Of a stretch of DNA of 64,000 nt, positions 30,369 to 52,452 are shown piece after piece. The stretch covers positions 1,550,001 through 1,614,000 of the forward strand of contig NZ_CP042172.1 of the NCBI RefSeq assembly GCF_005937985.2. The letters are read 5' to 3'. Numbering within the stretch: position 1 is the first letter of the stretch; each line of letters opens with the position of its first letter. The position numbers and the translations under genes are program-made. The notes under the pieces were generated by a model. The model did no database searches. It worked only from the letters and a program-made list of their open reading frames with translations, and had not been told where the DNA came from. This stretch comes from Arthrobacter sp. KBS0702. Lineage in GTDB: Bacteria > Actinomycetota > Actinomycetes > Actinomycetales > Micrococcaceae.

Positions 30369-30450
30369 GCCCGAGTGGCGGAATTGGCAGACGCGCCGCA
30401 CTCAAAATGCGGTATCGAAAGGTGTGTGGGTTCGAGTCCCACCTCGGGCA
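30369..30450 (+). tRNA. tRNA-Leu (anticodon CAA)
   Basis: A complete class II tRNA. The acceptor stem is GCCCGAG/CTCGGGC and the anticodon stem CCGCA/TGCGG holds loop CTCAAAA, giving CAA (leucine). A long variable arm precedes the T-arm GTGGGTTCGAGTCCCAC. CCA is not encoded. Its 3' end (from 30429) and 11 bp beyond are repeated at 34259, and shorter or imperfect versions at 41333 and 42228. This marks it as the integration target of the accessory region that follows. Confidence 0.97.
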
Positions 30451-30461
30451 CAGTGTTTCCG
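30429..30461 (+). repeat. Attachment-site core at the tRNA-Leu 3' end (attL-like)
   Basis: These 33 bp, which span the T-arm and acceptor end of tRNA-Leu and 11 flanking bases, are exactly repeated at 34259-34291. A 29-bp version lies at 42228-42256 and an imperfect one at 41333-41355. tRNA 3' ends are the usual targets of tyrosine-recombinase integrative elements. No integrase gene is seen in the window. Confidence 0.75.
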
Positions 30462-30466
30462 GAGGT

Positions 30467-30486
30467 CAGAGGCCTGTGGGCCTCTG
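30467..30486 (+). terminator. Short hairpin after tRNA-Leu
   Basis: CAGAGGCC (30467-30474) and GGCCTCTG (30479-30486) form a perfect 8-bp stem with a 4-base loop, 17 bp after the tRNA. No T-tract follows. It probably helps 3'-end processing or termination together with the next hairpin. Confidence 0.55.
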
Positions 30487-30510
30487 AGTGTGCACAAACT
30501 GTTCACTGAT

Positions 30511-30533
30511 GGACCCCCCTCGGGGGCCCTTTT
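30511..30533 (+). terminator. GC hairpin with T-run after tRNA-Leu
   Basis: CCCCC and GGGGG around a TC loop are followed by CCCTTTTG. This is a likely rho-independent terminator for tRNA-Leu. From about 30534 to 31002 I see no convincing gene, only a weakly repeat-like stretch (a TGTTCATG... and CGCATGACCTG segment like that in the 34.6 and 41.7 kb repeats). Confidence 0.6.
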
Positions 30534-31002
30534 GTTGGTGGCTGTGCCTTGTCCTGGGTTTGGGCAGCGGTGTCGCTGGTTATCTGTTCATGGCGGGGAG
30601 GGTCTTGAACCGCATGACCTGATGCCGGCTGGGCGAGCGGAGTCGCCTCGGCTCGTTTGCACTAATTCCGGTCACGACTGTTCATGGCAAGATTTCCGGA
30701 TCTGTCTTTGTCGTACCGGGTTGTGTTGAGAGTGGGCAGATGCGGCTCGAACGGTTCTTGCCTGTGTGTCGAATATTTCTGGCCCTGCACGGGAAGCTGA
30801 AACTGGCTCCACGCTGTGACGATGGTGAGCGACGAAAACCGAGCCACGGCGTCCGGACCGCACACCCATCTTCAGCCGTGGATAGTCCGAATTGATCCAG
30901 CTGTGGGAGCTTAAGAGCGCGCAGGCGATCAGAGTCTTTGGGTGTTTTCGTGGCGCCCGTTGGCGGAGCGTCTCACACACCCGATGCTTGACTTGGGTCG
31001 GG

Positions 31003-31392
31003 TCACAAACCCTGTTGGTCTGTGGGTGGGTGTTCGGCCACGCAGAAGAGGTTCCCCTCCCGGTCAGCAAGGGTGGTCCACTGCACGTGTGGGAATTCGT
31101 CAAGGACGTCCCACTGGTAAGTGGCACCGAGGTCGAGGAGGCGTCTGACCTCGGCCTGTCGTGACCCCCAGGGCACGGTCAGATCTAGGTGGAACGTTTG
31201 GTGCTCGGGGCGAGGACCGGTCATGGGTTGGAAGAACATTGCGAACCCTCCGGGACCCGCAGATGGCAGGTAGACGCTGTCGCCGCCCGGTGAGGGCAAG
31301 GCGCCGGTCACGGACGCCCAAAAATCGGCAAGCGTGGCTGGATTCTGAGCCTCCAGGTTGATCGCACCAAGGGTGATCTGATGTGTCGTCAT
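31003..31392 (-). CDS. VOC-family (glyoxalase-like) protein
   Basis: The 129-residue protein starts MTTHQITLGAINLEAQNPAT and has ADFWASVTGA, then FHLDLTV and LADREGNLFCVAEHP. These are the two beta-alpha-beta-beta halves of a VOC-fold protein, with His and Glu residues placed as possible metal ligands. Related proteins are often called glyoxalase-like and the substrate is usually unknown. ATG 31392 is preferred over longer in-frame starts because it begins the domain. Its ribosome binding site is weak. Confidence 0.75.
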   Translation of the reverse strand: MTTHQITLGAINLEAQNPATLADFWASVTGALPSPGGDSVYLPSAGPGGFAMFFQPMTGPRPEHQTFHLDLTVPWGSRQAEVRRLLDLGATYQWDVLDEFPHVQWTTLADREGNLFCVAEHPPTDQQGL

Positions 31393-31549
31393 GGTTGCAA
31401 CGCTTACAGGATCCTCGGACAGCCTCTCGTTAGTGCACGGCGGCGTCGATGCCTCCCGAGACTGAGGCGTCATCCCCAGCCGTCGCAGGTTCCACCTTTC
31501 GGAGGCCAACTCAAACATAATGGCTCCGCCCCCGGCGTTCAGCCGCAGC

Positions 31550-32329
31550 TCAGCCGGTGCTATCGAGGATCAGGCGCGCCGCCTCCGTTGGTTGGTCCCA
31601 GTGCGGGAAGTGACCGCAGCTTTCGAACCAGTGGAGCGTTGCGTCCGGGAACAGCTCCATGGCCCGCGCCGCCTCACTGGGAGCGGTGACCTTGTCCTTC
31701 CGCCCCCATCCAATGACCACTTTGCCCTTGAGTGAACCGGCCGGTGCGCCTTCCTGGCGGGGTCCGTGAATCAGCGCGTTGAGGGCAGGGTCCAGACTGG
31801 TCGATGTCTTGAACCCGCGAAGTTCATGCAGGACCAAATCCTGCGGCAGCTTCCATGGATGGGCGGAGAACTGAGCCAACAGGGCCGTGCGGCCAACGGG
31901 GTTGCCCGTGAGGAAGGGGAGCGCCGGTTGGATACGGCGTACCAGTGCGACGGATGCCTTGATGCTTGCTCCAAAGATCGCTGCCTGGCGGTCATTCCAG
32001 AATCCACCAGGGTCCAGTGCGATCGTGGTGCCAGCGTGCCCTCGCCGTGCCATTTCCATCGCCATCCGGGCGCCCATGGAGCTGCCTGCCAGATCAATGT
32101 CGCCCAGTTCCGCGTCGCGGATAAAGGCTTCGACGGCATCGGTCAGCGTGGCAATGGTGGTTTCGCCGGCCAGCGGCGCGGATTCGCCGCAACCGGGGAG
32201 GTCGACGGCGATGACATCGCGTTCAGCGGCCAGCGCCGGGATTATCGGGTTCCAGTTGCCAATACTGGAACCGAGCCCATGGATCAGGAGGAGTGGCTTA
32301 CCGGAGCCTTGCCGGGTTGAGTGCAACAT
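31550..32329 (-). CDS. Alpha/beta hydrolase
   Basis: The 259-residue protein has the oxyanion segment LLLIHGLGSS, the nucleophile elbow GSSMG with Ser84, an aspartate in GWGRKDKVTAPSE, and the histidine in SCGHFPHWDQP. This is a complete catalytic triad. The spacing and HGLGSS pattern resemble esterases and C-C hydrolases of aromatic breakdown, but the substrate cannot be read from sequence. ATG 32329 is chosen because upstream codons do not fit the fold. Confidence 0.85.
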   Translation of the reverse strand: MLHSTRQGSGKPLLLIHGLGSSIGNWNPIIPALAAERDVIAVDLPGCGESAPLAGETTIATLTDAVEAFIRDAELGDIDLAGSSMGARMAMEMARRGHAGTTIALDPGGFWNDRQAAIFGASIKASVALVRRIQPALPFLTGNPVGRTALLAQFSAHPWKLPQDLVLHELRGFKTSTSLDPALNALIHGPRQEGAPAGSLKGKVVIGWGRKDKVTAPSEAARAMELFPDATLHWFESCGHFPHWDQPTEAARLILDSTG

Positions 32330-32521
32330 GACTTCACTGTAGTGGGCGGTGCAACATCTCCGGCCAGGGGTCACCTGTCGAAAGGCCCGACGGTGCAGCG
32401 ATACGCGGTCAGGCAGCGCATCCAAACGCCTCAGGTCGAACACATCTCAGGCAGGGCGAAGAGTCCAACCGCCACGTTGTCGGGGCCCTGAATTCCAGGA
32501 TGTTACCGGCGCCGATGCCCT

Positions 32522-32725
32522 GTGGAGAAGGAATACTCACAGAACCTCCAGCGCGAGGGCAAATGGGTCAGCATCTGGCGAGTAGTCGGAGAGTACGCCA
32601 ACTACTCGGTATTCGAAGCGGAGAGCAACGACGAACTGCACGAGATGATCTCGAACCTGCCCTTGTTCCCGTTCATGGACATCGGGATAATTCCGCTGGC
32701 CAAGCACCCCTCGGACATCCACTAG
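32522..32725 (+). pseudogene. Muconolactone isomerase remnant, N-terminally truncated
   Basis: The 67 readable residues (EKEYSQNLQREGKWVSIWRV, then VGEYANYSVFEAESNDELHE, then LPLFPFMDI and HPSDI) match the C-terminal two thirds of muconolactone delta-isomerase (CatC). The usual first 25 or so residues with the catalytic N-terminal strand are missing, and the bases upstream do not encode them. It could start at GTG 32522, but a full fold is unlikely. It is directly followed by a YciI-family gene of a related fold. No other catechol-pathway genes remain nearby. Confidence 0.65.
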
Positions 32726-33022
32726 ATGCCCTACCTAATTGAGACCTATGACAAGCCGGATGCGGAAGCGTTGCGATTGGCGGTACGCGAGGAGCACCTG
32801 CGCTACCTGGACAGCCGCGCCGGGCTGCTGCTGGCCTGCGGTGCCAAACTCTCCGACGACGGGCAAACTGCTTCCGGAGGAATCTACCTGCTGGACGTGG
32901 AGGACCGGACGGCGGCGGAGGAATTTATCGCCGCCGACCCATTTAGCCGCGCCGGATTGTTCCGGCAAGTGGTGGTTGCGCGCTGGCGCAAAGCATATTT
33001 AGACGGCAAGAACTGCCTCTAA
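32726..33022 (+). CDS. YciI-family protein
   Basis: A 98-residue protein starting MPYLIETYDKPDAEALRLAV, with REEHLRYLDSR, then GGIYLLDVEDRTAAEEFIAADPF. This is the YciI ferredoxin-like fold with the conserved His in EEH and the Asp/Pro in ADPF. Family members are small putative enzymes or dimeric binding proteins of unknown substrate. The start directly follows the stop of the isomerase remnant (TAGATG). A rho-independent terminator follows. Confidence 0.85.
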   Translation: MPYLIETYDKPDAEALRLAVREEHLRYLDSRAGLLLACGAKLSDDGQTASGGIYLLDVEDRTAAEEFIAADPFSRAGLFRQVVVARWRKAYLDGKNCL

Positions 33023-33057
33023 GCTGATATGTAGCGGGATTATCAAGAAGGCAGGGG

Positions 33058-33095
33058 AAAGCGGTCCGCGCTCGAGAGAGCCGCGGGCCGCTTTT
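33058..33095 (+). terminator. Rho-independent terminator after the YciI gene
   Basis: GCGGTCCGCG (33061-33070) pairs with CGCGGGCCGC (33082-33091) with one mismatch, followed by TTTTGCTT. It is a standard intrinsic terminator 40 bp after the YciI stop. Confidence 0.88.
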
Positions 33096-33322
33096 GCTTA
33101 TGTTTTCCGCCAGTGTGGTCTGGGGGCATTCGCCATAGTCAGGGATGCCTGAACTTAGAATGACCAACGTCATCGATCGCATAACCTCCTCGGGATACGG
33201 GGGCCTGTTCTAAGCAAGGGCTCATCCCACCTGGGCCCGATTCGTTCACTCCCAACCGAACTGCAAGGCCCCCTGCGCTCCTAGGGTTATGCAGTTGTAG
33301 CACCCAACTGGATTTGAGGTAC

Positions 33323-33751
33323 TTAGTCGGGTGGGAGTTCGAAGCGGGCGCCCAGTTCGGTGAGCGCTCCGAAGAGATCAGGCACACCCCACCATTCGAC
33401 AGCGCGCCCGTCCTCAAAGCGGAGGATGTGCATGGAGGCTATCTTCACCGGTTTGCCGGTAGCGGCCAACCCCAGAAAGTGCCCTGTGTTCGTCCCCTGC
33501 CAGGTTATCCGGCCGGCAACCTTATCGCCTTCGACGACGGTGTCCTCGACGGTCCCCGTGAAGCCGGAGAAGCCGGCATGGAGCCCTTGCATCCAGGAGA
33601 CAATTCCGGCCAGACCTGGAAGCTGTCCGGGACCGGCACTCCGGTCTTCAATGCCAGTGCTGACGACCTGGGCCAGCGCATCCTCGTCATTTGCGGCAAC
33701 GGCTGCAATGAGCCGCTCGTACGCCTGCCGCAGTTCTTCACTGTTGCTCAT
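33323..33751 (-). CDS. SnoaL-like ester cyclase family protein
   Basis: The 142-residue protein has EELRQAYERLIAAVAANDEDAL at the N-terminus. The later VEGDKVAGRITWQGTNTGHFLGL and HILRFEDGRAVEWWGVPD are the strands and conserved HxxRF-DG-xxEWW pattern of SnoaL/NTF2-like ester cyclases. These act in polyketide ring closure or as general small-molecule hydrolases; no polyketide genes are near. Start ATG 33751 has GAGGAACC just before it. Confidence 0.85.
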   Translation of the reverse strand: MSNSEELRQAYERLIAAVAANDEDALAQVVSTGIEDRSAGPGQLPGLAGIVSWMQGLHAGFSGFTGTVEDTVVEGDKVAGRITWQGTNTGHFLGLAATGKPVKIASMHILRFEDGRAVEWWGVPDLFGALTELGARFELPPD

Positions 33752-33836
33752 GGTTCCTCCTCGAACGACGCATCCTGGTAGCCGAAATTGCTCTTACGAC
33801 CAAGTTTCAACACCGCGGCGGGCAGGCACAAGGGCG

Positions 33837-34019
33837 TCACATATTCAGGTGTCTGCCTCTGGCCCGCGTGACGGCCAGAGGTTTTGCCCGGCTTGTCAGG
33901 TGGAGGCGGCGCGCGGTGATGACCATGTCCAGCCATGCGTCGCCGAGCATCCACGCGGCCATAACGTCGGTGAGCCAGTGGTGTCCGAAGTGTACGCGGC
34001 TCAGTCCGAATGAATGGCT
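33837..34019 (-). pseudogene. PAP2-family phosphatase, 3' fragment
   Basis: The minus strand encodes FGLSRVHFGHHWLTDVMAAW and then MLGDAWLDMVITARRLH to a stop at 33837. SRVxxGxHxxxDV is the third conserved motif of PAP2 phosphatases, with the catalytic histidine. An in-frame stop codon (34020-34022) cuts it off upstream, and the first two motifs are absent. The break lies about 70 bp before the 660-bp duplicated segment, so insertion of that element may have removed the 5' part. Confidence 0.75.
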
Positions 34020-34146
34020 TTAGCTCATCGGGGCGTCAGGTCCTGTCCGTTCTTCGGCGAGGGGGGCACCATTGGAGCGAAATCGCGCCCCGCCCGGGCG
34101 GCCGTTTATGCAGCCTGGCTGGGGGCACCGAAGTGGGCAAAAAAGG

Positions 34147-34169
34147 GGGTGTGCACAATGTGCACACCC
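34147..34169. repeat. Perfect palindrome in repeat copy A
   Basis: GGGTGTGCACA (34147-34157), one centre base, and TGTGCACACCC (34159-34169). The same 23 bp occur at 41221-41243. Arms are perfect over 11 bp. It could bind a dimeric protein such as a recombination accessory factor or repressor. Confidence 0.85.
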
Positions 34170-34258
34170 TGGGCTTCGGAGCGGGTCGTACTGGTGACGG
34201 ACTGGGCCGGATTGGCGATGTTTGCCGGAAAGTGGCGGCTTTTCGACTGCTGGAACCC

Positions 34259-34291
34259 GGTTCGAGTCCCACCTCGGGCACAGTGTTTCCG
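34259..34291 (+). repeat. tRNA-Leu attachment core, copy in repeat A
   Basis: 33 bp identical to 30429-30461 at the tRNA-Leu 3' end. The base before it differs (C instead of G), which sets the left limit of identity. It probably marks the right end of a 3.8-kb insertion (30.46-34.26 kb). Confidence 0.75.
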
Positions 34292-34318
34292 CTGTTCAGG
34301 GGCTTTTTGGTGTTTCTG

Positions 34319-34337
34319 GTGGGCACATTGTGCACAC
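34319..34337. repeat. Second palindrome in repeat copy A
   Basis: GTGGGCACA (34319-34327), T, TGTGCACAC (34329-34337): one mismatch in nine pairs. The corresponding sequence in copy B (41393-41411) has changed on both arms and still pairs perfectly. Confidence 0.75.
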
Positions 34338-34659
34338 TCTTGCCTCTGATCTGATGTTCCGGATGTGCGGGGTCCCGGCAGCGGCCTATTCGGTTTTCTG
34401 GGGGAGCGGCTGCCTACGGCGGACCGGGCACCGCCCTGTGGTCCCTTTTCTGGGTTTCATCCTTGTCCGTCCTTCCCTTGAGGTTTGCGTTCATCACTTC
34501 ATGGTGGCCACGGCCGCGCACGACATGATTTGCTCATTATTCGTTCGATCGACCTCGGGGTTGCGGCTGGTCCGGATTTTCCGTTCTGTTGCCTGTTCAT
34601 GCAGGAATGCGTCGGGAACGGCATGACATGGCCACTGCTCCGGAGCTGATCATGAGCTC

Positions 34660-34826
34660 GCAGAGCCTGGCCGGTCGGCTGGCGCGCCGGCGTCGGGGGC
34701 GAGTTGTAGGAGTTGGTGGGCCTTGCTGCCTCTGCCTTCCCACCCGTTGATGAAGGCGATGGCGGTGCGGATGGGGGCGGAGTGTCGGGTACTGCTGGGT
34801 GTGTATGCGTGGATCAGCGCCCAGAG
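34660..34826 (-). pseudogene. C-terminal coding remnant in repeat A (unknown family)
   Basis: The minus strand reads LWALIHAYTPSSTRHSAPIR, then TAIAFINGWEGRGSKAHQLL, then QLAPDAGAPADRPGSASS to a TGA at 34660. An in-frame TAG bounds it upstream. Repeat B (41725) encodes the same kind of ending in the same frame (INFWEGHGSKAHRFLQI ... SGSASS, stop). Conserved protein similarity and stop position suggest a real gene end that travels with the element. I do not recognise the family; a recombinase or transposase tail is possible. Confidence 0.4.
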
Positions 34827-34861
34827 CTAGTGTGCTGCGGCAGGGTCTAGGCGTTGTGCTG

Positions 34862-34898
34862 GCACCTCGGCACCTCGGCACCTCGGCACCTCGGCACT
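34862..34898. repeat. Microsatellite of 8-bp unit GCACCTCG
   Basis: Four perfect copies of GCACCTCG from 34862 to 34893 and a partial fifth. It lies just beyond the 3' end of the M48 protease gene and may vary in copy number by slippage. Confidence 0.9.
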
Positions 34899-34918
34899 TA
34901 GGCCTCAGACTCAATGGC

Positions 34919-37024
34919 TCAGGGCTGTCCTCTGCGATACCGGCGGCGCGCGGCCACTGTGGCGTAACGGACAGGGACTACCAGGCCAACAATCAAGATT
35001 GAGACCGCAAGACCACGCTCCATGGCGGTAGACCAGATGGACCAGAGAAGGTTTATAGGGGCCGAGTCAGTGCTTGCGAACCAGAAAACAGCCACACCAA
35101 GGGCACAAAACCCCAAGCTCAACGGCCCGGCGATGAAAACTTTCGCAGGACCCGCGACGGGGTCGATCAAACAAAGAATTGCACCCGTGGCTACCCAGCA
35201 GACCACGGTCGTCGATACCCACAAGGAGTTAGCCTGAGCAGCAGCCTCGGTTGTCGTGATCGGACCGGTGAGCAGAAGTTGCGAGACTAGGAAAATGCTC
35301 CCCGCAAGGCCTGCCGCGAGGCCTAAGACCAGCGGAAACCGGAGCGTTCTGCCGGTCGCTGAAAGGGCGGGGCTCGAATACGTGGCCCCGGATGTGTGGC
35401 TCGGGAAATACATCCATTCCCGGGCACCGCGTCGACGTGACATGGGTCCAAGGAGCGCAGCTATGAAGGCCACGACAGTCAGCAACACTGCCAAACCAAT
35501 TCCTGGCCATTCGTCGTAGCCATCCTGGATCCACATGGAGGCCCCCAACCACCCGAAGCTCGTCAACGCTAGGTCCAGGCTGTCCCCGATCCATGTGGCC
35601 ACTAGGAAGATAGCGATGTTGAGCAGCACGGCAGGGAGCCAGAAGTGCCATGGACGTGTCACGAGAAGCGCTAAGGGTAGGCAAACAGCTCCGAACGCTG
35701 CGCAGATAAATACTGTGCCAAGGCCGGCAATTATGGGGGCGATCAATGTCATGGGGTCCAACAGGGCCGAGGCGTCCTGACCGATCCCTGCCAACGAGAT
35801 GAGTTGTCCAAGTGCCAAGCCCGCCGACACACCCGCTGCCGTTATGAAGACACCGCACATCGTCTGCGAGCCGGGCCTATTGGTTCCATGAGCCAAGGAA
35901 TAGGCGAATTGTGATCTCCAGATGTCCAGACCCACGGTCAATCCCAAGAGTGACCCCGTCACCGCCGCTGATGTCCAGATTCCGCCCAGAACGATTTCTG
36001 TTCCGGACAGCAATGGAGTCGCCGTGCTGACCACCAGTGGACCCAGAACTCCAGCAAGGAGTCCCGCACAGAGTGCTTGGAGAAAGCTGCTGCCAGTCGC
36101 CAGATGTGGCGACTCGAGGACATCGAGCCGTTCGGTCCGCGTCGGGTGGCGCATGCGCAAGCGCCGAAGCCAATTGAGAGGACTGCCGGTGCCCAGCAGG
36201 CCCAAACCCGACCTTACGGCCTCTAGCGATGGTAGCTCCGCAGTGGCTCGAAGGTCCGCGTCGTACTCGCGTGCCCTGAGCACGGCGGCCGTCACGATCT
36301 CCACAACAACGGCAAGCAATGCCGCGCGCCATAGATAGTTGGGGAGGACGGAAGGGCCCTCCCACAAAGCCCCCACTATTGGGAACAAAAGGGCCAACAG
36401 CGCCACGTACCAAGCGCTACGTGCCGTCCAGGCCAGTTCTACGTCCCGGTGCCGGATGTGCGCGAACTCGTGGAGCACTACGCCATCCGCCGGCCCTGGC
36501 CGCACCAACATGCCCACGATCTTGGGTGGAAGCGCCACAGCGGGCGAGCCCGGCCTCCCGAACGAGAAGGCGTCGCCCATCCTTGCGGGTCCAATGTACA
36601 GCCTCGGCACCCGGAGCAAACTTGCCTGCGAAGCCAACTGTCCAAAACGCTCCACCACCGCCTGATGCTTTGGCATCGGCAGCTCAAGCGTACGACGGCG
36701 CCTGATCACAGAGGGGACGGCGTATAACACCGCTACAGCGAGCCCTGCCACCAGGACTGCACCCGCAAATGACCACAAACCACGCCTGAACTCAGTAGGA
36801 GCCGTGCAGCCCCGTTGCTGGTCAACTTCCAAGGCTAAGCAGTTATTGAGCGCCTGTATCCACTCTTTCCCCAGGACTACGTTGTGCATCCAGGAACCCA
36901 CGAATAGGCCAACGCCAAGGAGGGCGGCAATGAACAGGAGATACAACCCCGTGGTCGGTGCCGGAAATGCAAGTACATTGACACGGCGAACCACCACGGT
37001 TGAGGCCAACGGGTTCTTTTCCAC
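34919..37024 (-). CDS. M48/M56-like integral-membrane zinc metalloprotease, 701 aa
   Basis: The N-terminal third has two membrane helices (about 26-45 and 85-104) around a loop with Cys62 and Cys73. A protease core follows with HEFAH (residues 185-189) as zinc motif and a likely third ligand Glu253 in REYDAD, as in M48 proteases. The C-terminal 400 residues hold about nine more hydrophobic stretches. That is much larger than HtpX (about 290 residues), so it is an unusual family member. Sequence here looks richer in A and T than the housekeeping block (not calculated). It lies 40 bp after the gene at 37065-37553 and probably forms an operon with it. Confidence 0.8.
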   Translation of the reverse strand: MEKNPLASTVVVRRVNVLAFPAPTTGLYLLFIAALLGVGLFVGSWMHNVVLGKEWIQALNNCLALEVDQQRGCTAPTEFRRGLWSFAGAVLVAGLAVAVLYAVPSVIRRRRTLELPMPKHQAVVERFGQLASQASLLRVPRLYIGPARMGDAFSFGRPGSPAVALPPKIVGMLVRPGPADGVVLHEFAHIRHRDVELAWTARSAWYVALLALLFPIVGALWEGPSVLPNYLWRAALLAVVVEIVTAAVLRAREYDADLRATAELPSLEAVRSGLGLLGTGSPLNWLRRLRMRHPTRTERLDVLESPHLATGSSFLQALCAGLLAGVLGPLVVSTATPLLSGTEIVLGGIWTSAAVTGSLLGLTVGLDIWRSQFAYSLAHGTNRPGSQTMCGVFITAAGVSAGLALGQLISLAGIGQDASALLDPMTLIAPIIAGLGTVFICAAFGAVCLPLALLVTRPWHFWLPAVLLNIAIFLVATWIGDSLDLALTSFGWLGASMWIQDGYDEWPGIGLAVLLTVVAFIAALLGPMSRRRGAREWMYFPSHTSGATYSSPALSATGRTLRFPLVLGLAAGLAGSIFLVSQLLLTGPITTTEAAAQANSLWVSTTVVCWVATGAILCLIDPVAGPAKVFIAGPLSLGFCALGVAVFWFASTDSAPINLLWSIWSTAMERGLAVSILIVGLVVPVRYATVAARRRYRRGQP

Positions 37025-37064
37025 ACTTCCACCCCTCTACTGGGCTTACAGGCTAAAGAAAGAA

Positions 37065-37553
37065 CTAGTTGCCAAGCACCCCAATGATCGCGTTTCCTAA
37101 CAGAACAGCTTTGTCCTCGTCAAGCCCCAATCGGGCGGACTGCTCTTTGGCAGCCGCAAAAATTTGCGCCCGCTGTGCCTTGGTTAGATCCATCTCATCA
37201 GGCGGAGATGCCTGGTCGGTACGCCCCCGCAACACTCGCTTCAGGGCATCCGAGATGGGGGATTTGGCCGCATCTTTGGCGACGTCGCGTAGCAGGTCGC
37301 CCACGAAACCAATGACAAACTCGGCTACTGCCATGGCGAAGGGAGTCAACAAGACCAGTTCAAGGCCGAATCCTACTGCTTCGTCTTTCTTGATGAGCAT
37401 TAGAGTCGATTGTGGATGTGCATAGTATTCCTCAACGACTTCGTCGAACGTCATCAACTCATCGGGCGCCGCACGATCAATGACCAACCTGGCCAGCTCG
37501 GTAATCAACTCGCGTGACTGGTCCGCTGGCAGGTCCGTTCGTGGCTCTCCCAC
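37065..37553 (-). CDS. Hypothetical protein paired with the membrane protease, 162 aa
   Basis: I do not recognise a family. Residues 1-50 are charged and helical (ELITELARLVIDRAAPDELM), then a hydrophobic stretch (FGLELVLLTPFAMAVAEFVIGFVG, about 62-85) could be a membrane segment. The C-terminus is charged, with a TKAQRAQIFAAAKEQSARLG helix. GTG 37553 has GGGAGAA upstream. It is the first gene of a two-gene minus-strand operon with the 701-aa protease, so it could be a substrate, adaptor or inhibitor of it. Confidence 0.65.
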   Translation of the reverse strand: MGEPRTDLPADQSRELITELARLVIDRAAPDELMTFDEVVEEYYAHPQSTLMLIKKDEAVGFGLELVLLTPFAMAVAEFVIGFVGDLLRDVAKDAAKSPISDALKRVLRGRTDQASPPDEMDLTKAQRAQIFAAAKEQSARLGLDEDKAVLLGNAIIGVLGN

Positions 37554-37768
37554 GGGGTTCTCCCTTAATGAGATTCAGCCAGACTGTGAGGCGTCTGTGG
37601 TGGGAGTTATTGTGCCGCTAACAGGGAGGGAGCACAAGTGCTCCGGAGGCGCTTTGCACGCGCTGAGGTGTTATGGGAGGGACAGAATTACACGGCCAGC
37701 AGTCCAAACTTCCGAACCGGCAGTCGTTCCTTCTTGCCGGACAACTTCCAGCGGACAATGAATAGCTG

Positions 37769-37991
37769 AAGGCCGCCGTCCTTCTCGAATCCGCCGCCCG
37801 GAACCACCCTCTCGTGGACGGGAACAAGCGCACCTCCTTTGACCCTGATGGTGCTATTCCTGTGGCTGGACAGCTACCGGCACGACTTCAACACAGATGA
37901 CGCCTTCGCCCTGGTTGTCGGTGTCACCGAGGGCCGCCTCGGGCTGGAAGAATCCAGTCCCCGGATCGGGGCCCGCATCTGCTCCCGTTAG
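37769..37991 (+). pseudogene. Doc (Fic-fold) toxin remnant, frameshifted
   Basis: The plus strand encodes KAAVLLESAARNHPLVDGNK and RTSF, holding the Doc/Fic core HxxxDGNKR. One extra base after TTT at about 37840-37847 shifts the frame. Reading continues as MVLFLWLDSYRHDFNTDDAF then ALVVGVTEGRLGLEES to a TAG at 37989. The N-terminal half of Doc (about 50 residues) is missing. No antitoxin gene (Phd-like) is seen. Its stop overlaps the 3' end of the convergent peptidase gene by 4 bp. Confidence 0.75.
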
Positions 37992-38932
37992 CCGTTGTAG
38001 ATAGGTGTCGCCGGGAAGTATTGGTTGCATCCCCGGAGTCCGTAGTTGTACCCGTAATCAATGGAGTCGGACCGCTCTTGTAGTGTTCCGTGGTCCCTGT
38101 TGACTTCAGATTCCGATGAAGCGATGGTCGTTAGAAGCCGCTGGATGTCGCCTAGATCGTTGGGATACTCCAGGAATCCGGACTGTTGGGCGAAGTACAC
38201 CCAGGCGCCGGCAATGCAGTCGGCCTGATTCTCCAGCTGGATGCTCTCCTGGAGCGTACTGCCTGGCGGTACCCCCATGATGTTCTGGATATGGTGTCCC
38301 CATTCGTGTGCGTAGCCGACAGCGGGGGCTGCGTCTCCGATCTCCGAATAGAACAGCCACAGGCTGTCTTGACCCGTGTAGATCGCCCGATCGCCGCCGC
38401 AGTACATGTAGGACAAGTGGTTGTATGCGGCAATATTGCCATCCGATGCACGGCAGGCGGTCGGGCCGGCCTGGTCCGCGGCTATGTAGTAGAAGTTGGA
38501 GGGCCGGTTGGCGGCCCCGTAGAGCTCGTCAAACATTGGCGAGATGAGCGCGAGGATGTGGGTCAGGTAGGTGGGCATGTCGGCGTAGTTGTGACATCCC
38601 TCGTGGGACCCTCCCGGGCAGAAGACCTGCGGTTGGTTCGCTGCGAGTTCTTGGGCGGTCGCCGGAGCGGCAGCGGCAATTTTCGTGTTGGTAGGTTCCG
38701 GAGTGCGTGTGACCATCACGGTTGCGGCCGTGGAGGGCATCACGTCTGTTGGCTTGACTGTGGGGGTGGCTGCCGGTGTCCCGCTGGACGGCGGTGGTGG
38801 GGGAGTCACGGACACGGTTTCGGTTACCGTCTGAGTTGCGGTGGGTCCGGTGGCGCCAGGAACTGCCGTGCACGATGTCAGGAATACTGTCGTAGCTGCG
38901 ATGAATAGGGTCGGGGCAACATGGCGGTTCAT
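37988..38932 (-). CDS. Lipoprotein neutral zinc metallopeptidase (YpfJ-like)
   Basis: The 314-residue protein has a lipoprotein signal with lipobox LTSC (Cys21), then a Thr/Pro-rich linker to about residue 90. The peptidase domain carries HEWGHH (residues 209-214) and a downstream ENQAD with the third ligand Glu234, as in the neutral zinc metallopeptidase family PF04228. Cysteine pairs at 105/113, 160 and 178, 239 and near the end could form disulfides. It acts outside the membrane, anchored by lipid after Lgt processing. The substrate is unknown. Confidence 0.85.
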   Translation of the reverse strand: MNRHVAPTLFIAATTVFLTSCTAVPGATGPTATQTVTETVSVTPPPPPSSGTPAATPTVKPTDVMPSTAATVMVTRTPEPTNTKIAAAAPATAQELAANQPQVFCPGGSHEGCHNYADMPTYLTHILALISPMFDELYGAANRPSNFYYIAADQAGPTACRASDGNIAAYNHLSYMYCGGDRAIYTGQDSLWLFYSEIGDAAPAVGYAHEWGHHIQNIMGVPPGSTLQESIQLENQADCIAGAWVYFAQQSGFLEYPNDLGDIQRLLTTIASSESEVNRDHGTLQERSDSIDYGYNYGLRGCNQYFPATPIYNG

Positions 38933-39046
38933 GGCTGGGTCCTCTGCTTAGCTGAGACCGCAACAGATGCCCATCCATCCCCTGTGCGTCAGGGTAGCGG
39001 CTCGGTTCAGGCTTGTCATCCCCTCAACACAAGAGGCATCGGATAG

Positions 39047-39342
39047 CGGCCGGCGCCGGCCCGCGAAATCTACGTCTCGCGACTGTTCAAGAAGGCCTCC
39101 GCGTACGCCGAACTGACCTGCGACCGCTGGTACATCCTCTCGGCCAAACACGGTCTCCTCCACCCTGACGAGATCATCCAACCCTACGACATGCGGCTCG
39201 GAACGAACCATCCGACATCGCCGCCGGCGTCCGAAACCAGCTCGCCCTCGAACTCGCCGACCTCCAAGACGCTTCACTGGTCGGCCTGGCGAATGTTGCC
39301 CCAGTAGTAGTGGCCCACAAGACAGGTACCCTCCAGTGGTGA
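39047..39342 (+). pseudogene. DUF6884-like protein remnant, frameshifted
   Basis: After an in-frame stop at 39044, the plus strand reads AREIYVSRLFKKASAYAELT, then CDRWYILSAKHGLLHPDEII and QPYDMRLG. This is the pattern of phage and island proteins of the DUF6884 type (YxxSxLFxxxxxYAExxxDxWYILSAxHGL). The match then jumps to another frame (EPSDIAAGVRNQLALELADL) ending at a TGA at 39340. There is no start codon or ribosome binding site. It is a decayed island gene. Confidence 0.6.
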
Positions 39343-39464
39343 CCCAGAGGCGGCTTGGTCCATACACTTCGGTTTAGCCGTTATTTCGGCGGCCGACCAT
39401 TTTACGAGTGCCCGTCGGCACCCGTTGGTCTCGGCGCAACATCGGCCCCGCAGAGGAGGACCCG

Positions 39465-41081
39465 ATGAGGTTCTCAACAACATTGTCCCTGCCACACCAG
39501 CGGCGGGCTTCCGTCCGAAGCCAGGAAGAACTGGGCACCGGCGAACGCCGGTTCCGCCGGGGGGCATCCGCATCCCTCCGGTTCCGGCGGCGAGTAGCCA
39601 TCATCAGCACTATCCTGATGGCACTCATGCTTGTCGGCAATATCCCGGCGACTGCCGCGGCCACCGTGACCTCCACAATCCCGGTCGGGCCAAATCCGCA
39701 GGGCGTTGCGTTCAGCCCGGACGGGTCGACAGCCTACGTCACCGACAATCACGGCGTCTCGGTCATCAGTGTCCCGTCGGGCACCGTGACCTCCACGATC
39801 CCGGTCATATCGGAAGCTCTGGCGTTCACCCCTGAAGGGTCGACAGCCTACGTCACCAACTACGGTTCCAACACGGTGTCCGTCATCGGTGTCGCATCGG
39901 GCACGGTGAACTCCACGATCCCGGTCGGGTCTCCACGCGGTGTCGCGTTCACCCCGGACGGGTCGACAGCCTACGTCACCAACTACAGTTCCAACACGGT
40001 CTCCGTCATCGGTGTCGCGTCGGGCACGGTGAACTCCACGATCCCGGTCGGGACAAAGCCGCTCGGTGTAGCGGTCAGCCCGGACGGGTCGAGAGCCTAC
40101 GTCACCAACCCCGGTTCCAGCACGGTGTCCGTCATCGCTGTCGCGTCGGGCACGGTAACAGCCACGATCTACGTCGTGGGGGCGCCCGGCGGTGTTGCGT
40201 TCACCCCGGACGGGTCGAGAGCCTACGTCTCCAACTACGGTTCCAACACGGTGTCGGTCATCGGTGTCGCGTCGGGCACCGTGACCTCCACGATAACCGT
40301 CGGGTCGGCTCCGTGGGGTGTTGCGGTCAGCCCGGACGGGTCGACAGCCTACGTGGCCAACCAAGGTTCCAACACGGTGTCTGTTATCGCTGTCGCATCG
40401 GGCACGGTGACGTCTACAATCCCGGTCGGGGACAGTCCGGCGAATGTTGCGGTCAGCCCGGACGGGTCGACAGCCTACGTCACCAACTACCTTTCCAGCA
40501 CGGTGTCGGTCATCACGGTGAACCCGGCGCCCCCGGTGTTCACCGCGGCCACACCCCCAACCACCGCCACCGTCGGTGCGGCATACACCTACACCTTCAC
40601 CGCCACCGGTAACCCGGCATCGCACTTTACGGTGTCCTCGGGTTCCCTGCCGGCAGGTCTGGGCCTGAATACGACCACCGGTGTCCTTTCCGGCAACCCG
40701 ACCACGGCCGGCCAGGCAACTTTTACGGTGAATGCCACCAACGGGGTCAGCCCTGACGCGGTCACGGACTCCATCACGATCACCGTGAACCCCGCACAGG
40801 CAGCCCCGGTGTTCACCGCGGCCACGCCCCCGACCAAAGTGAGCACCCGCACCTTTTACACCTACACCTTCACCGCTACCGGTAGCCCGGCCCCAACCTT
40901 CCGCGTATCCTCCGGCGCACTGCCAACAGGGCTGAGCCTGAACTCCACCACCGGGGTCCTCTCCGGCACCCCGACCACGGCCGGCCAGGCAACGTTTACA
41001 GTGACCGCCACCAACGGGGTCAGCCCCGACGCGGTCACATCACGCATCACGATCAAAGTGAACAAAGCCCCGGCCCGCTGA
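39465..41081 (+). CDS. Secreted YVTN beta-propeller protein with two Ig-like repeats
   Basis: The 538-residue protein has a long basic N-terminus, then a hydrophobic signal segment (AIISTILMALMLVGN) and a cleavage region PATAAA near residue 65. Seven YVTN repeats of about 41 residues follow (each like TVTSTIPVG...GVAFSPDGSTAYV...NTVSVI), enough for a complete seven-blade propeller. Two putative Ig-like (He_PIG type) repeats of about 85 residues (FTAATPPT...GLSLNSTTGVLSGTPTTAG) end the protein. There is no LPXTG or membrane anchor. ATG 39465 has AGAGGAGGACC upstream. It probably acts in binding or adhesion outside the cell. Confidence 0.85.
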   Translation: MRFSTTLSLPHQRRASVRSQEELGTGERRFRRGASASLRFRRRVAIISTILMALMLVGNIPATAAATVTSTIPVGPNPQGVAFSPDGSTAYVTDNHGVSVISVPSGTVTSTIPVISEALAFTPEGSTAYVTNYGSNTVSVIGVASGTVNSTIPVGSPRGVAFTPDGSTAYVTNYSSNTVSVIGVASGTVNSTIPVGTKPLGVAVSPDGSRAYVTNPGSSTVSVIAVASGTVTATIYVVGAPGGVAFTPDGSRAYVSNYGSNTVSVIGVASGTVTSTITVGSAPWGVAVSPDGSTAYVANQGSNTVSVIAVASGTVTSTIPVGDSPANVAVSPDGSTAYVTNYLSSTVSVITVNPAPPVFTAATPPTTATVGAAYTYTFTATGNPASHFTVSSGSLPAGLGLNTTTGVLSGNPTTAGQATFTVNATNGVSPDAVTDSITITVNPAQAAPVFTAATPPTKVSTRTFYTYTFTATGSPAPTFRVSSGALPTGLSLNSTTGVLSGTPTTAGQATFTVTATNGVSPDAVTSRITIKVNKAPAR

Positions 41082-41220
41082 GCGAAAACCACGCCGACAC
41101 CCGGCAGAAGCTGCGAAACGACGGCGAGCTCACGTCGGCGCCAGCTCATTGCGTTCGCGGATGAAAACCCGGACGGCCGTTTAAGCAGCGGGTTGGAGTC
41201 GGCGAAGCGGTCAAGAAAGG

Positions 41221-41243
41221 GGGTGTGCACAATGTGCACACCC
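41221..41243. repeat. Perfect palindrome in repeat copy B
   Basis: Same 23-bp perfect inverted repeat as at 34147-34169. Its conservation while neighbouring bases have changed suggests that the palindrome itself matters or that the duplication is recent at this end. Confidence 0.85.
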
Positions 41244-41332
41244 TGGGCTTCGGATCGGGTCGTACTGGCGTCGGACTGGGCCGGATTGGCGATGTTTGCG
41301 GGGGACTGGCGGAAATTCAAGGGCTGGAACCC

Positions 41333-41355
41333 GGTTCGAGTCCCACGTCGGGCAC
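41333..41355 (+). repeat. tRNA-Leu attachment core, copy in repeat B (imperfect)
   Basis: GGTTCGAGTCCCAC, then G in place of C, then TCGGGCAC. It corresponds to 30429-30451 with one mismatch. Likely an old insertion end. Confidence 0.65.
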
Positions 41356-41392
41356 GTGTTTTCCCTGTTCAGGGGCTTTTTGGTGTCTATTC

Positions 41393-41411
41393 GTGTGGAC
41401 AGTGTCCACAC
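41393..41411. repeat. Second palindrome in repeat copy B (compensatory change)
   Basis: GTGTGGACA (41393-41401), G, TGTCCACAC (41403-41411), nine perfect pairs. Relative to copy A, a C-to-G change on the left arm is matched by G-to-C on the right. Confidence 0.8.
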
Positions 41412-41724
41412 TCTCCAGCCTCTGATCTGATGTTCCGGGTGTGTGGGGTCCCGGATACACTTATTCGGTTGTATGGGGGAGCGGCCGGCTACGGCGGACC
41501 GCGGACCGCCCGGTGGGGGCTTTGCTGGGAGTTCATCTTTGTTCGTCCTTCCGTTTGGTTTCGCGTTCACCAGTTCATGGTGGCTAGGGCCGCGTACAAC
41601 ATGACTTACTGATTATTCTTTCGATCGGGCTCGTGTTGGGGCCGGAGACGGTTTTTCGCTCAGGTACCTGTTCATGCAGGAAGGCGGGCGGAACGGCATG
41701 ACCTGGCAACCGATCCGGAGCCGA

Positions 41725-41826
41725 TCATGAGCTCGCTGAGCCTGACCTGGTGGTGGCCGGGCCGGCCTCGAGTGTGATTTGCAGGAACCGATGGGCTTTG
41801 CTGCCATGGCCTTCCCAAAAGTTAAT
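41725..41826 (-). pseudogene. C-terminal coding remnant in repeat B (unknown family)
   Basis: The minus strand reads INFWEGHGSKAHRFLQI and then TLEAGPATTRSGSASS to a TGA at 41725, matching the ending in copy A (34660) residue for residue at many positions, with the same stop. Upstream similarity fades at about 41826. Family not recognised. Confidence 0.4.
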
Positions 41827-41927
41827 CCGCCGCCGCAGCCATGATTTTCCCGTCACCGCCGCATCCGCCCGTCGACGTGGGGCCGCTGGTGGTGGCGTCC
41901 TTCCTCGACCGCGCGGAGGAACTGGGC

Positions 41928-42066
41928 TCAGCGCCTCGTCTCGTACCGGGTCAGGACCACGCCGTCGGGAAACGTCCGCGTCTCCACCAGGTTCAGGTAC
42001 GCCCAGCTGTCCAGCGAGGTGAAGAACGGAGTGCCGCCGCCCACCAGGCCCGGATGGGTGGCTAGG
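41928..42066 (-). pseudogene. DHFR/RibD_C-type reductase, 3' fragment
   Basis: The minus strand reads LVGGGTPFFTSLDSWAYLNL and then VETRTFPDGVVLTRYETRR to a TGA at 41928. This is the C-terminal end of the dihydrofolate-reductase-like RibD_C family (VVGGGTPFF...LVETRTFxxGVVxLRY). The first three quarters of the gene are missing. Between this fragment and 42374 I see only repeat C. An intact member of the family lies at 60894. Confidence 0.75.
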
Positions 42067-42150
42067 GAGGCTTCCAGCGGGTAAGGGGTGGTTCAGGAAA
42101 CCTTGGCCCCCAGGAGTCCAAATATCGATCCAACGCCCATCTTCCAGACT

Positions 42151-42256
42151 GTCGACGTACTGGTGCCGGATTGGGCCGGATTGCGGAGGTTCTCGGGGGA
42201 GTGGCGGAAATGCAAGGGCTGGAACCCGGTTCGAGTCCCACCTCGGGCACAGTGTT
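42151..42256 (+). repeat. tRNA-Leu-type repeat, copy C
   Basis: About 105 bp like the centre of copies A and B: ACGTACTGGTGCCGGATTGG, then GGAGTGGCGGAAATGCAAGG, then GCTGGAACCC and the 29-bp tRNA core (42228-42256). It lacks the flanking palindromes. GAGTGGCGGAA matches the D-arm region of tRNA-Leu, which supports descent from the whole tRNA with loss of the anticodon arm. It is the last copy before the next intact genes. Confidence 0.75.
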
Positions 42257-42374
42257 ATCTCAGTTTCAGACGGGTTTTCGGTCCCCCGACAATGGACCTC
42301 ACGGCAATGGATAGTTACCTTGCTTGAGTTCGGCAGCGCCGCGTTTGATGAGCGCCCGGGCGTAGATTAGGTCC

Positions 42375-43199
42375 GTGGCAAAGAACAGCGCTTTCGGAGA
42401 GTACCTGCAGGCGCGCCGAAAGCTTGTCCGGCCGGAGGACGTCGAACTGCCCAGCTATGGACGGCGCCGGGTTCCGGGTCTTCGCCGTGAAGAGGTTGCA
42501 GGCCTAGCAGGCATCAGTGTGGATTACTACGTGCGCCTGGAGCAGGGCAAAGACCACCACCCATCCCCGCAAGTACTCGACGCTCTGGCACGCGCCCTGC
42601 GTCTGGACCCGCCCTCAACCGTCCATCTACACCGGCTCGCGCAACCGGTCCTGCAGGCCGTGGCCAGTCCTGCGCCGGCCGGGGTGGCGGAAGGTTTGTC
42701 GTATTTGCTCGTCACGCTGGCGCACGTTCCTGCCTTCGTTCAGGACCGCTACATGAACGTCCTCGCCGCCAATCCGCTGGCCGTTGCCCTGTCACCGAGA
42801 AACGAACCCGGCACGAACGTGTTGCGGGCAGCATTTTTGGATCCCGCCGAACGTGAGCTCTACGAGGACTGGGAACACGTCATGGAAGACGCGACCGCGG
42901 GGCTCCGCGCAGCTGTGGGGGAGCGCATCAACGACCCACAACTCGAGGCGCTGGTCATTGAGCTATCAGAGCGCAGCACGTACTTCCGCCAGCTTTGGGG
43001 GCGCCACGATGTCCGCCCCAAGGTGGCGGGCAAGCGCCTGCTGCATCACCCGGTGGTGGGCGAACTCGAGCTCTTCCACGAAAAACTGGCCGTCACCGGA
43101 ACGGACGGTCAGCTCCTGGTCATTCACCACGCCGAGCCAGGCAGCGCCTCCGAACGGGCACTGGAACGACTGGCCCGGACACTCCCGGGCACGGCCTAA
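42375..43199 (+). CDS. XRE-family regulator with MmyB-like ligand domain
   Basis: The 274-residue protein has an N-terminal helix-turn-helix (FGEYLQARRKLVRPEDVELP, then PGLRREEVAGLAGISVDYYV and RLEQGKDHHPSPQVLDALA). A C-terminal MmyB-type PAS-like domain follows from about residue 105 (VQDRYMNVLAANPLAVAL). Family members often control an oxidoreductase gene next door. Here an SDR and a beta-hydroxyacid-dehydrogenase-like gene follow on the same strand. GTG 42375 start. Confidence 0.9.
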   Translation: MAKNSAFGEYLQARRKLVRPEDVELPSYGRRRVPGLRREEVAGLAGISVDYYVRLEQGKDHHPSPQVLDALARALRLDPPSTVHLHRLAQPVLQAVASPAPAGVAEGLSYLLVTLAHVPAFVQDRYMNVLAANPLAVALSPRNEPGTNVLRAAFLDPAERELYEDWEHVMEDATAGLRAAVGERINDPQLEALVIELSERSTYFRQLWGRHDVRPKVAGKRLLHHPVVGELELFHEKLAVTGTDGQLLVIHHAEPGSASERALERLARTLPGTA

Positions 43200-43403
43200 A
43201 CCTCCAGCCATGGCGGATCCAAATCACGCCAAAGGTAGCCACGGTATTCATATGAATCACAGGGTTCTGGCTGCCTGATTCCTGCGGGAGCACACTGAAT
43301 CCCGGAGCTGCCTAGACCCCGTGCTCCTTCAGGCTTGCAGCCGAAGGACGCCGGGCGGCTCCTGCGAAAAACACCTCCCACCTGCCGAAAGAAGACCAAC
43401 CCC

Positions 43404-44330
43404 ATGGCAAGAATCACCACCCGGTTCGGGTTTAGCTCCACCACCTCGGATGTCACCGAGGGCATCGACTTCACCGGAAAGCGCGTCATCGTCACCGGCG
43501 GCGCCTCCGGCATCGGAATCGAAACAGCGCGCGCGTTCGCCAACATCGGGGCCGAAGTCACCCTGGCGGTGCGCAACGTCAAGGCCGCGACGCCAGTAGC
43601 GGAAGAATTGCGCGAGTCAACAGGTAACAGCAAGATCTTCGTGGGCCGAATGGACCTGGCCGACCTGTCCACCATCACCGAATTCGCCGACGAGTGGACC
43701 GGCCCGCTGGACGTGCTGGTCAACAATGCCGGCATCATGGCGCTGCCCGAACTTGAGCGAACCCCGGAGGGCTGGGAAATGCAGTTCGCCACGAACTATC
43801 TGGGCCACTTCGCCCTCGCACAGGCCCTGCATGGAGCCCTCGCCGAGGCGGGGAACGCCCGTATCGTGTCCCTGAGCTCCAGCGGACACCTGTTCTCCCC
43901 GGTCATCTTCGATGACCCTCACTTCAACTTCATCCCCTATGACGCTCTTGTCGCCTACGGGCAGTCCAAGACCGCCTCAACCTTGTTCGCCGTGGGCGTC
44001 ACCGCACGCTGGGCCAAGGACGGCATCACTTCCAACGCCGTCATGCCTGGGGCCATCGCCACAAACCTTCAGCGCCATACCGGCGGCCTGCGCACCCCCA
44101 TCGAACGCCAGAAAACTCCCCAGCAGGGTGCGGCGACCACCCTGTATGTGGCGACTTCCCCCGAGCTTGAGGGCATCGGCGGACGCTACTTTGAGGACGT
44201 CAACGAGGCTCGTACCGTGGACCACCGAGGCCCCGACTACACCGGCGTGGCACCCTACGCACTCGATCCGGCCAACGCTGAGCGCCTCTGGGATCTCTCG
44301 ACCGAACTCCTGGCCGGGAAGACTGCATGA
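43404..44330 (+). CDS. Short-chain dehydrogenase/reductase
   Basis: The 308-residue protein has the cofactor motif TGGASGIG (31-38), NNAG (107-110), a catalytic Ser near 158-160 (VSLSSSGH) and Tyr185/Lys189 in YGQSK. The length and HFNFIPYDALVAYGQSK region resemble the oxidoreductase/retinol-dehydrogenase-like SDR group; the substrate is unknown. ATG 43404 fits better than an upstream in-frame start. It overlaps the next gene by 4 nt (ATGA). It is probably a target of the XRE regulator upstream. Confidence 0.9.
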   Translation: MARITTRFGFSSTTSDVTEGIDFTGKRVIVTGGASGIGIETARAFANIGAEVTLAVRNVKAATPVAEELRESTGNSKIFVGRMDLADLSTITEFADEWTGPLDVLVNNAGIMALPELERTPEGWEMQFATNYLGHFALAQALHGALAEAGNARIVSLSSSGHLFSPVIFDDPHFNFIPYDALVAYGQSKTASTLFAVGVTARWAKDGITSNAVMPGAIATNLQRHTGGLRTPIERQKTPQQGAATTLYVATSPELEGIGGRYFEDVNEARTVDHRGPDYTGVAPYALDPANAERLWDLSTELLAGKTA

Positions 44331-45358: not shown

Positions 45359-45360
45359 CG

Positions 45361-45394
45361 CGCCGGTAGGCCCGGTAGTCCGGGCCTACCGGCG
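45361..45394. terminator. Hairpin between convergent oxidoreductase genes
   Basis: CGCCGGTAGGCCCG (45361-45374) and CGGGCCTACCGGCG (45381-45394) form a perfect 14-bp stem. It lies between the convergent genes ending at 45358 and 45433. No T-tract is clear. Confidence 0.8.
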
Positions 45395-45432
45395 TTACGG
45401 TCCGGAGGACCGGGCCCTATCGATTGAAGTGC

Positions 45433-46407: not shown

Positions 46408-46570
46408 GCCTTCTCCTCCGTCAAACAGTCCCGGGCCAGGCTGCGGCCCAGGCCCACGGTATGTGAAAAAGTCCGCTTTGTGGGAACCGCCCAGCCGGAT
46501 TACACCCTGCCGACCAGAGTGATGGGCGCCCGCGGGCTCCGGACCATACCCCGGCCGGCGGGCGCCTATG

Positions 46571-46789: not shown

Positions 46790-46924
46790 GGCGCCTGTCT
46801 GTCCGGCTGCAGCTTCAGCGGTTAGATAGTGCCCGTTGGAAGCGCGCTTGGCTTTGCCGTCGGCGGAAACCTAGTGGTGCCGGACCGGCCTCGCTGCGGC
46901 GGAAGGCCAGAGGCAGCAATATTC

Positions 46925-49976: not shown

Positions 49977-50030
49977 AGCGGTCCTGTCTAAGAGATGGCG
50001 CGGCAGGACACGGACAAATTGGTTCTGCCA

Positions 50031-50044: not shown

Positions 50045-50073
50045 GACCGACTGTATCGGGCTAAGCTGGGCAG

Positions 50074-52433: not shown

Positions 52434-52452
52434 ACCTAGATAGGAGAACGCC

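Follow-up and report, generated by a model that had tools for sequence, protein, structure and literature searches.

Stacked integrase-less units at a tRNA-Leu(CAA) gene in Arthrobacter and their probable accretion by an integrative and conjugative element

A stretch of 64,000 nucleotides from Arthrobacter sp. KBS0702 (contig NZ_CP042172.1, positions 1,550,001 to 1,614,000; hereafter the window, from genome G000) contains an intact tRNA-Leu(CAA) gene that anchors a tandem array of inserted units, each set off from the next by a copy of the tRNA 3' end. The 33-mer at 30429-30461, which covers that 3' end, is repeated exactly at 34259-34291 (0.00 matches in shuffled sequence). The stretch at 42228-42260 departs from it by three mismatches, all among its last four bases, which leaves 29 bases exact, and 41333-41355 differs by one change over the 23 nucleotides that form the attachment (att) core, the last 23 nucleotides of the tRNA gene. 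The initial annotation, made from the letters of the window, had reported these copies, and they are real. With S at the changed base, the exact core pattern occurs at these four places only in the 3.65-Mb genome searched; allowing one mismatch gives five core matches genome-wide, and thus at most one further place (location not listed). A generic tRNA 3'-end pattern gave no match. The window therefore comprises the tRNA site, three further att sites, and one decayed site with 7 of 23 core bases changed.

The tRNA 3'-end copies are, judging from their sequence, the middle part of a larger repeat, a predicted att site. The copies at 34259 and 41333 sit inside a repeat of ~600-700 bp that is 75-84% alike by segment; the two stretches, 34117-34830 and 41191-41826, resemble each other and keep the same spacing, and the middle part recurs at 42154-42276. 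The layout of the site, taken from copies in relatives, begins with a palindrome, GTGTNNACA-N-TGTNNACAC, at -110 (the P arm) and continues through a conserved stretch and the 23-nt core to GTGTNNACA ~60 bp right of the core start (the P' arm); two bases of the arm site, NN, give its class. The 19-bp palindrome stands at about -110 in 49 of the 56 distinct internal sites, and over 260 kb of G031 the motif lies exclusively beside cores (0 in three shuffles). G012 has two palindromes ~370 bp right of a core. The two halves of the palindrome are symmetrical: 98.1% of 432 cells are paired, 28 cells are changed on both sides, and none of 500 shuffles scored as high on paired cells, doubly changed cells, or covariation, with two of the five measures, doubly changed pairs (419/500 as high) and further pair types (90/500), within the shuffles. 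That symmetry is kept while the middle bases vary supports a predicted two-fold protein site. The internal junctions look attP-like, joining the P arm of one unit, the core, and the P' arm of the next, and across the 56 sites different left-end types abut one right end at the core. At the fourth att site of the window (42154..42256), where unit 3 ends on its right, neither palindrome nor P' site was found.

The integrase that would act on these sites is found at the same tRNA gene in relatives. A PF00589 search of eight genomes placed an integrase domain 633-635 bp past the tRNA core start in G020, G026, G035, and G022, and a protein search found integrase relatives in 76 of 150 genomes, a count that includes partial genes and distant proteins (31-42% identity). 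All 30 integrase loci returned lie directly 3' of tRNA-Leu, at the head of the array. The 116 loci given reduce to 81 distinct ones with an N-terminal match, 70 of which have the core and half-site. The tRNA accompanies 68 of these 70 core-associated loci (63 by its exact 5' end, five by ARAGORN), some of them partial or broken; the other two are partial integrase matches, of which one is truncated at a contig end. The core-associated carriers that have a name are records of Arthrobacter and Pseudarthrobacter, and one Paenarthrobacter metagenome-assembled genome has a remote integrase relative without the core. Four integrases 63-65% identical (L173, L174, L176, and L177, in G021, G096, G097, and G101) lie on other contigs without a tRNA core or half-site upstream, and are candidates for a different target site or for plasmid carriage. 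The central and catalytic parts of the array integrase are matched in solved structures, where its N-terminus is unmatched, and residues 1-69 have no Pfam match; the PDB matches include IntI4, weakly (E 1.9e-6). Integrase and host sequences are correlated (Mantel r 0.57, p 0.0005, 30 heads), but only partially, and strictly vertical inheritance of the integrase is not supported.

Genes typical of a conjugative element lie behind the integrase. In G020 they encode NlpC/P60, TrbL/VirB6, TraG-type, and TrwC proteins, the last a MOBF relaxase, and the backbone of this putative integrative and conjugative element (ICE) also has small proteins that appear winged-helix-like by eye. TrwC was present in 16 of 21 genomes searched, 20-104 kb downstream of the tRNA in 15 and elsewhere in G017; every head-integrase genome of the set (17) has it behind the tRNA except G017 and G161. 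G017 retains its head integrase, gives no profile match for further att sites, and has its TrwC at a distant place. Neither TrwC nor a head integrase was found in four of the 21 genomes (G000, G031, G018, and G012), and G012 has a distant integrase (40% identity) away from the tRNA site. A search for the integrase elsewhere in the genome had been proposed in the initial annotation; neither the array integrase nor the TrwC relaxase has a match in the window genome, and none of its five PF00589 matches lies inside the array. Without either, units 1 to 3 are expected to be immobile in this genome.

The integrase and its P' arm vary together. Residues 17-19 of the integrase, in its N-terminal strand, pair with the NN bases of the P' site as MVR with GT, MVL or MVV with TG, MVC with GG, and TVR with GC. 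First seen in the 30 heads, this rule then held in 49 of 49 loci with a strictly detectable site, a count that excludes G026 and G009, which failed the strict pattern, and six remote integrases (62-65% identity) that have neither core nor half-site. It holds in 63 of the 65 classifiable loci among the 70, five being classed as "other" and the 11 distinct loci without a core standing outside the set; two loci break the rule, L222 and the partial L241, the latter conforming at its second site. The strand classes were set after the first loci had been seen and many later loci come from the same genomes, which makes the larger count an extension and not a blind test. A second P' site has the same NN in 66 of the 70 loci. 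Of the 57 longer integrases, 54 follow the rule; on a tree of their sequences from about residue 49 onward, 16 changes of NN and 15 of the strand class are counted. Among 22 chosen pairs, those of different class differ as a block from the core to codon 45 (63-84% identity, as against 81-95% over codons 46-366), and same-class pairs are 77-98% identical throughout. This block difference indicates that the P' arm and the integrase N-terminus are exchanged together. We infer that the N-terminal strand contacts the NN bases of P', a match for which linkage alone could suffice.

The arrays are widespread in the genus. A DNA search for the repeat matched 36 of 59 genomes, the window's own included, with 36 of 37 inside the genus and 0 of 22 from other genera; the sole same-genus genome missed was G027 (68% complete). 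A profile of 48 sites gave 188 matches (E <= 0.001; the best ones listed, not every match inspected) in 32 of 34 chosen same-genus genomes, up to 14 per genome; G017 and G024 gave no match. In G022 one of the listed matches lies far off in opposite orientation. The core pattern was tallied in 146 of 150 genomes, a figure that counts the tRNA gene itself and has little weight alone. Among the matches listed, the farthest site stands 548 kb from the tRNA in G087 (5.28-Mb chromosome) and ~557 kb in G162; both are distances to the farthest listed site and do not imply that all intervening DNA belongs to the array.

Comparison with G024 shows how far the extra DNA of the window reaches. Over the 12 kb upstream of the tRNA the two genomes are 90% identical. 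G024 has a single core and no profile-detected site, and the zone from 30.45 to 60.08 kb of the window has no match of at least 300 bases in the compared 80 kb of G024. The block that starts at ~60.08 kb of the window (+29.7 kb) lies 1.4-13 kb from the tRNA in G024, in altered order. Measured against G024, then, the extra DNA runs to about 60.1 kb and does not end at 42.3 kb, where it was earlier placed. Nor are housekeeping genes confined to the DNA before 30.2 kb, as the same account held, since lgt-like and penicillin-binding-protein-like genes lie at 46.9-50.0 kb, within the zone that the compared 80 kb of G024 lacks; these are perhaps second copies.

Units 1 and 2 show three features of a cis-mobilizable element (CIME): no integration genes, no transfer genes, and attachment sites (attL and attR) kept at both ends as core and arm sites. 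The Pfam search of their eight open reading frames (ORFs) gave no transfer family and TrwC is absent from G000, other transfer genes not having been searched for. Such units may stem from the decay of an ICE or may be separate satellites. Their left ends are unlike the integrase end, and partial integrases stand at internal cores in a few genomes. The alpha/beta hydrolase region of unit 1 is 94-95% identical in the arrays of G073, G026, and G098, with 87-88% identity in the DNA upstream of the tRNA for G026 and G098. In G073 two att sites only 2.2 kb apart bound a small unit that matches the left (88%) and right (80%) ends of unit 1; it has neither the glyoxalase nor the YCII-SnoaL part, and its sole ORF of more than 200 aa is the hydrolase. 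The protease part of unit 2 is 86% identical in G145. The lactonase-like beta-propeller gene of unit 2 has 126-bp repeats, after which come He_PIG domains. Intact DUF4192 genes or their 3' remnants stand in or near a number of units (also at L010, L012, and L115); as a fixed part of the element, however, DUF4192 was rejected, for it adjoins the site in some units and lies kilobases to tens of kilobases off elsewhere. The inverted repeat just past the window's tRNA is possibly the terminator of tRNA-Leu. Many of the heads (L065-L094) have an inverted repeat right after the core, differing in sequence (by eye, uncounted), as if the element supplied the tRNA terminator.

Features of the tRNA-Leu(CAA) array in the window (positions are those of the window).
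Feature	Position	Strand	Basis
tRNA-Leu(CAA), intact, array anchor	30369..30451	+	ARAGORN; Rfam RF00005
Extra DNA relative to the compared 80 kb of G024	30452..60077	.	synteny
Unit 1	30452..34258	.	
Inverted repeat AGAGGCC-TGTG-GGCCTCT just past tRNA, left end of unit 1	30468..30485	+	sequence
P' arm site GTGTGCACA, class GC, 59 bp past core start, left end of unit 1	30488..30496	+	
Unit 1 glyoxalase-like	31003-31518	-	Pfam
Unit 1 alpha/beta hydrolase	31550-32443	-	Pfam
Unit 1 YCII	32726-33022	+	Pfam
Unit 1 SnoaL	33323-33751	-	Pfam
P-arm palindrome GTGTGCACAATGTGCACAC, class GC, 110 bp left of core	34149..34167	.	
att core copy, 33/33	34259..34291	+	
Unit 2	34292..41332	.	
P' palindrome at left end of unit 2, GTGGGCACATTGTGCACAC, class GC with one deviating arm base	34319..34337	.	
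DUF4192 gene 3' remnant, left end of unit 2	34689..34817	-	tblastn; PF13830 in intact relative
Unit 2 M48-like membrane protease	34919-37024	-	Pfam
Unit 2 ORF without Pfam match	37065-37553	-	Pfam
Unit 2 Zn_peptidase	37988-38932	-	Pfam
Unit 2 lactonase-like beta-propeller with He_PIG	39408-41081	+	Pfam
P-arm palindrome GTGTGCACAATGTGCACAC, class GC	41223..41241	.	
att core copy, 22/23	41333..41355	+	
Unit 3, ~0.9 kb	41356..42227	.	
P' palindrome at left end of unit 3, GTGTGGACAGTGTCCACAC, class GG	41393..41411	.	
DUF4192 3' remnants, unit 3	41705-41826	-	tblastn
Fourth att site: partial P arm, 29-bp core match	42154..42256	+	
Penicillin-binding-protein-like gene (Transgly, Transpeptidase) beside lgt-like gene	46925-49976	-	
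Fifth att site, decayed, 7/23 core bases changed	55809..55912	+	nhmmer E 2.1e-14

The order in which units arrived may be read from the decay of their sites. Across 27 genomes and 141 listed sites, the farther a site lies from the tRNA, the lower its whole-site profile score tends to be (mean Spearman rho -0.36; negative in 21 genomes, positive in six; 0 of 400 permutations as low), figures that hold among the matches listed, a list that lacks low-scoring sites. This gradient fits a scenario in which the newest unit would stand beside the tRNA and older ones would have been displaced. Stepwise decay of the core had been proposed earlier from the lengths of the matches. The lengths of 33, 29, and 23 had to be dropped as decay steps: they differ mainly because several left-end types supply the sequence to the right of the core, and the form "GGGCACGTGTTTTC" found there at 41333 recurs in eight other sites of the 56. 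The C-to-G change in the core at 41333 is unique among 48 aligned sites and may be decay; the core at 42228, farther from the tRNA, is unchanged.

Taken together, these data make it probable that the array arose by ICE-driven accretion of non-autonomous, CIME-like units at tRNA-Leu(CAA), with an arm-specificity code added. Stacked site-specific insertion at the tRNA 3' end, as the initial annotation proposed, is supported by the att arms at the copies, by G024 without an array, and by the integrase at the same tRNA in relatives. In those relatives, a putative ICE with a ~376-aa tyrosine integrase, type IV secretion system (T4SS) genes, and the MOBF relaxase occupies tRNA-Leu(CAA); it would integrate at the last 23 nt of the tRNA, through a predicted attP whose P arm has the palindrome at -110 and whose P' arm has two GTGTNNACA sites. 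Integrase-less units with the same core and arms would have inserted at the tRNA site as well, with every insertion moving the older units farther from the tRNA, as the decay gradient suggests. A unit could be mobilized with integrase from a co-resident ICE, either in trans or, as part of a composite, in cis. The P' NN goes with the integrase N-terminal strand, so the left ends of units may point to the integrases that once moved them: units 1 and 2 (GC) and unit 3 (GG) would stem from two different past integrase classes.

Several observations weigh against this accretion scenario. The first unit behind the integrase is often more than 100 kb long, and the right end of the ICE is therefore not delimited. 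G020 has one orphan palindrome without an adjoining core. G024 offers the empty tRNA-Leu site foreseen in the initial annotation insofar as it has no array and a single core, but 1.3 kb of other sequence beside its tRNA and an altered gene order mean that the site is not base-perfect. The unit 1 hydrolase region is 92-93% identical in G011 and G017 too, far from the array, and high identity is thus not special to arrays. The class of the first internal palindrome matched that of the head integrase in 4 of 15 cases, with 3.4 expected (p 0.45; first meaning first listed, classes assigned by eye, G119 and G104 dropped for want of a palindrome or core), and the idea that palindromes match the integrase class of their own element was not upheld. 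Left and right classes agree within units in 14 of 28 cases (6.6 expected, p 0.0004), but a same-junction control was raised too (13 of 37, 8.4 expected, p 0.04).

The initial annotation took the units for separate tRNA elements that each brought an integrase, inserted in turn, and then lost it. Partial integrases do stand at internal cores in a few genomes, including the two distinct loci without a tRNA noted above, and an integrase fragment lies beside a core in G121 and others lie mid-array in G026. In the internal units of seven genomes (stretches of G000, G031, G014, G098, G086, G119, and G106), however, tblastn found no remnant of the array integrase, the units have a common P arm with few left-end types, and the ends and hydrolase of unit 1 recur as the small unit of G073; we regard such separate losses as unlikely. 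The lone weak tblastn match (30% identity, G031) is the recombinase of a three-gene group. Three copies of these three adjacent tyrosine recombinases occur in G031 (C1:1411128-1413486, 2403289-2405647, and 2412525-2414883), one in the array, and look like a separate recombinase-triad element; the G031 array also has a 150-residue PF00589 fragment unmatched by the array-integrase query. Spread of the copies by homologous duplication of the 700-bp repeat, with no site-specific recombination, would account for repeats ~80% alike with long common flanks, but it is very improbable given that the 56 sites set different left ends against the same right end at the core and that G024 has no copy except the tRNA itself.

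An integron combines a single integrase, close to its primary site, with an array of integrase-less units. The layout at tRNA-Leu is similar, with many such units to one integrase, but the sites here are tRNA cores flanked by arms, and the integrase lies among ICE genes. A head integrase might likewise gather cassettes that move singly, a reading that the small unit common to different species and the partial tracking of the host by the integrase would favour but that we hold to be possible at best and doubtful: the class of the P palindromes does not track that of the head integrase, and the integrase stands with ICE genes on the array side of the site, where capture at the tRNA would displace it. 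Equally tentative is its extension, by which small integrase-less units with complete arms would move singly in trans and the four arm classes, exchanged as a ~240 bp module of P' arm and integrase N-terminus, would be compatibility groups whose history is readable from two bases per site. Another account of the arm sites has a somewhat better, though still less than even, chance: the palindromes would bind a regulator or directionality factor, for which the small winged-helix-like proteins of the ICE backbone would be candidates, and the match between integrase and P' would be mere linkage over ~105 bp. The block difference from core to codon 45 in different-class pairs would permit joint travel without contact, and the P palindromes ignore the head integrase class; the same NN at both P' sites in nearly all loci, and the few mismatched combinations despite the repeated changes of NN and strand class on the tree, speak against mere linkage.

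Among described systems, the closest kinds are CIME/ICE accretion (as outlined in PMC5704250) and the ssrA genomic islands of Dehalococcoides (as outlined in PMC3146451). In the former, elements without integration or transfer genes keep their att sites in tandem with an ICE or an integrative and mobilizable element at a gene end, and the present units likewise have att sites at a gene end without such genes; relative to that outline, the genus-wide spread, the two-armed junction sites, the four arm classes, and the small shared units are additional here. The Dehalococcoides islands are in tandem, split by RNA-gene 3'-end repeats, and 15 of them have no integration module, those without one being discussed in the same outline as possible cis-mobilizable elements. 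Tandem islands parted by such repeats, some without an integration module, are what we see as well. The account of the Dehalococcoides islands, however, describes a serine recombinase, a tmRNA target, and repeats within 100 kb, as against a tyrosine integrase, tRNA-Leu, and a farthest listed site at ~550 kb, and the relaxase and T4SS genes at the head and the conserved arm palindromes set the present arrays apart from those islands as outlined. The RUSTI ICE of Glutamicibacter, presented in PMC5526665 as one element, is also an actinobacterial ICE at tRNA-Leu, with an imperfect 3'-end repeat. Among the literature matches listed, titles and the openings of abstracts gave no description of the array or of the arm code, and the scale, the double-armed junctions, the small unit shared between species, and the arm code appear to be novel.

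In the Arthrobacter group of soil bacteria, an extensive variable region is thus tied to a single tRNA gene. Its arrays offer dozens of natural att sites alongside integrases with matched variants, and the choice of arm site by a tyrosine integrase and the possible helper-driven movement of integrase-less units become directly testable. If the code is true, two bases in a dead element would name the class of integrase that moved it.

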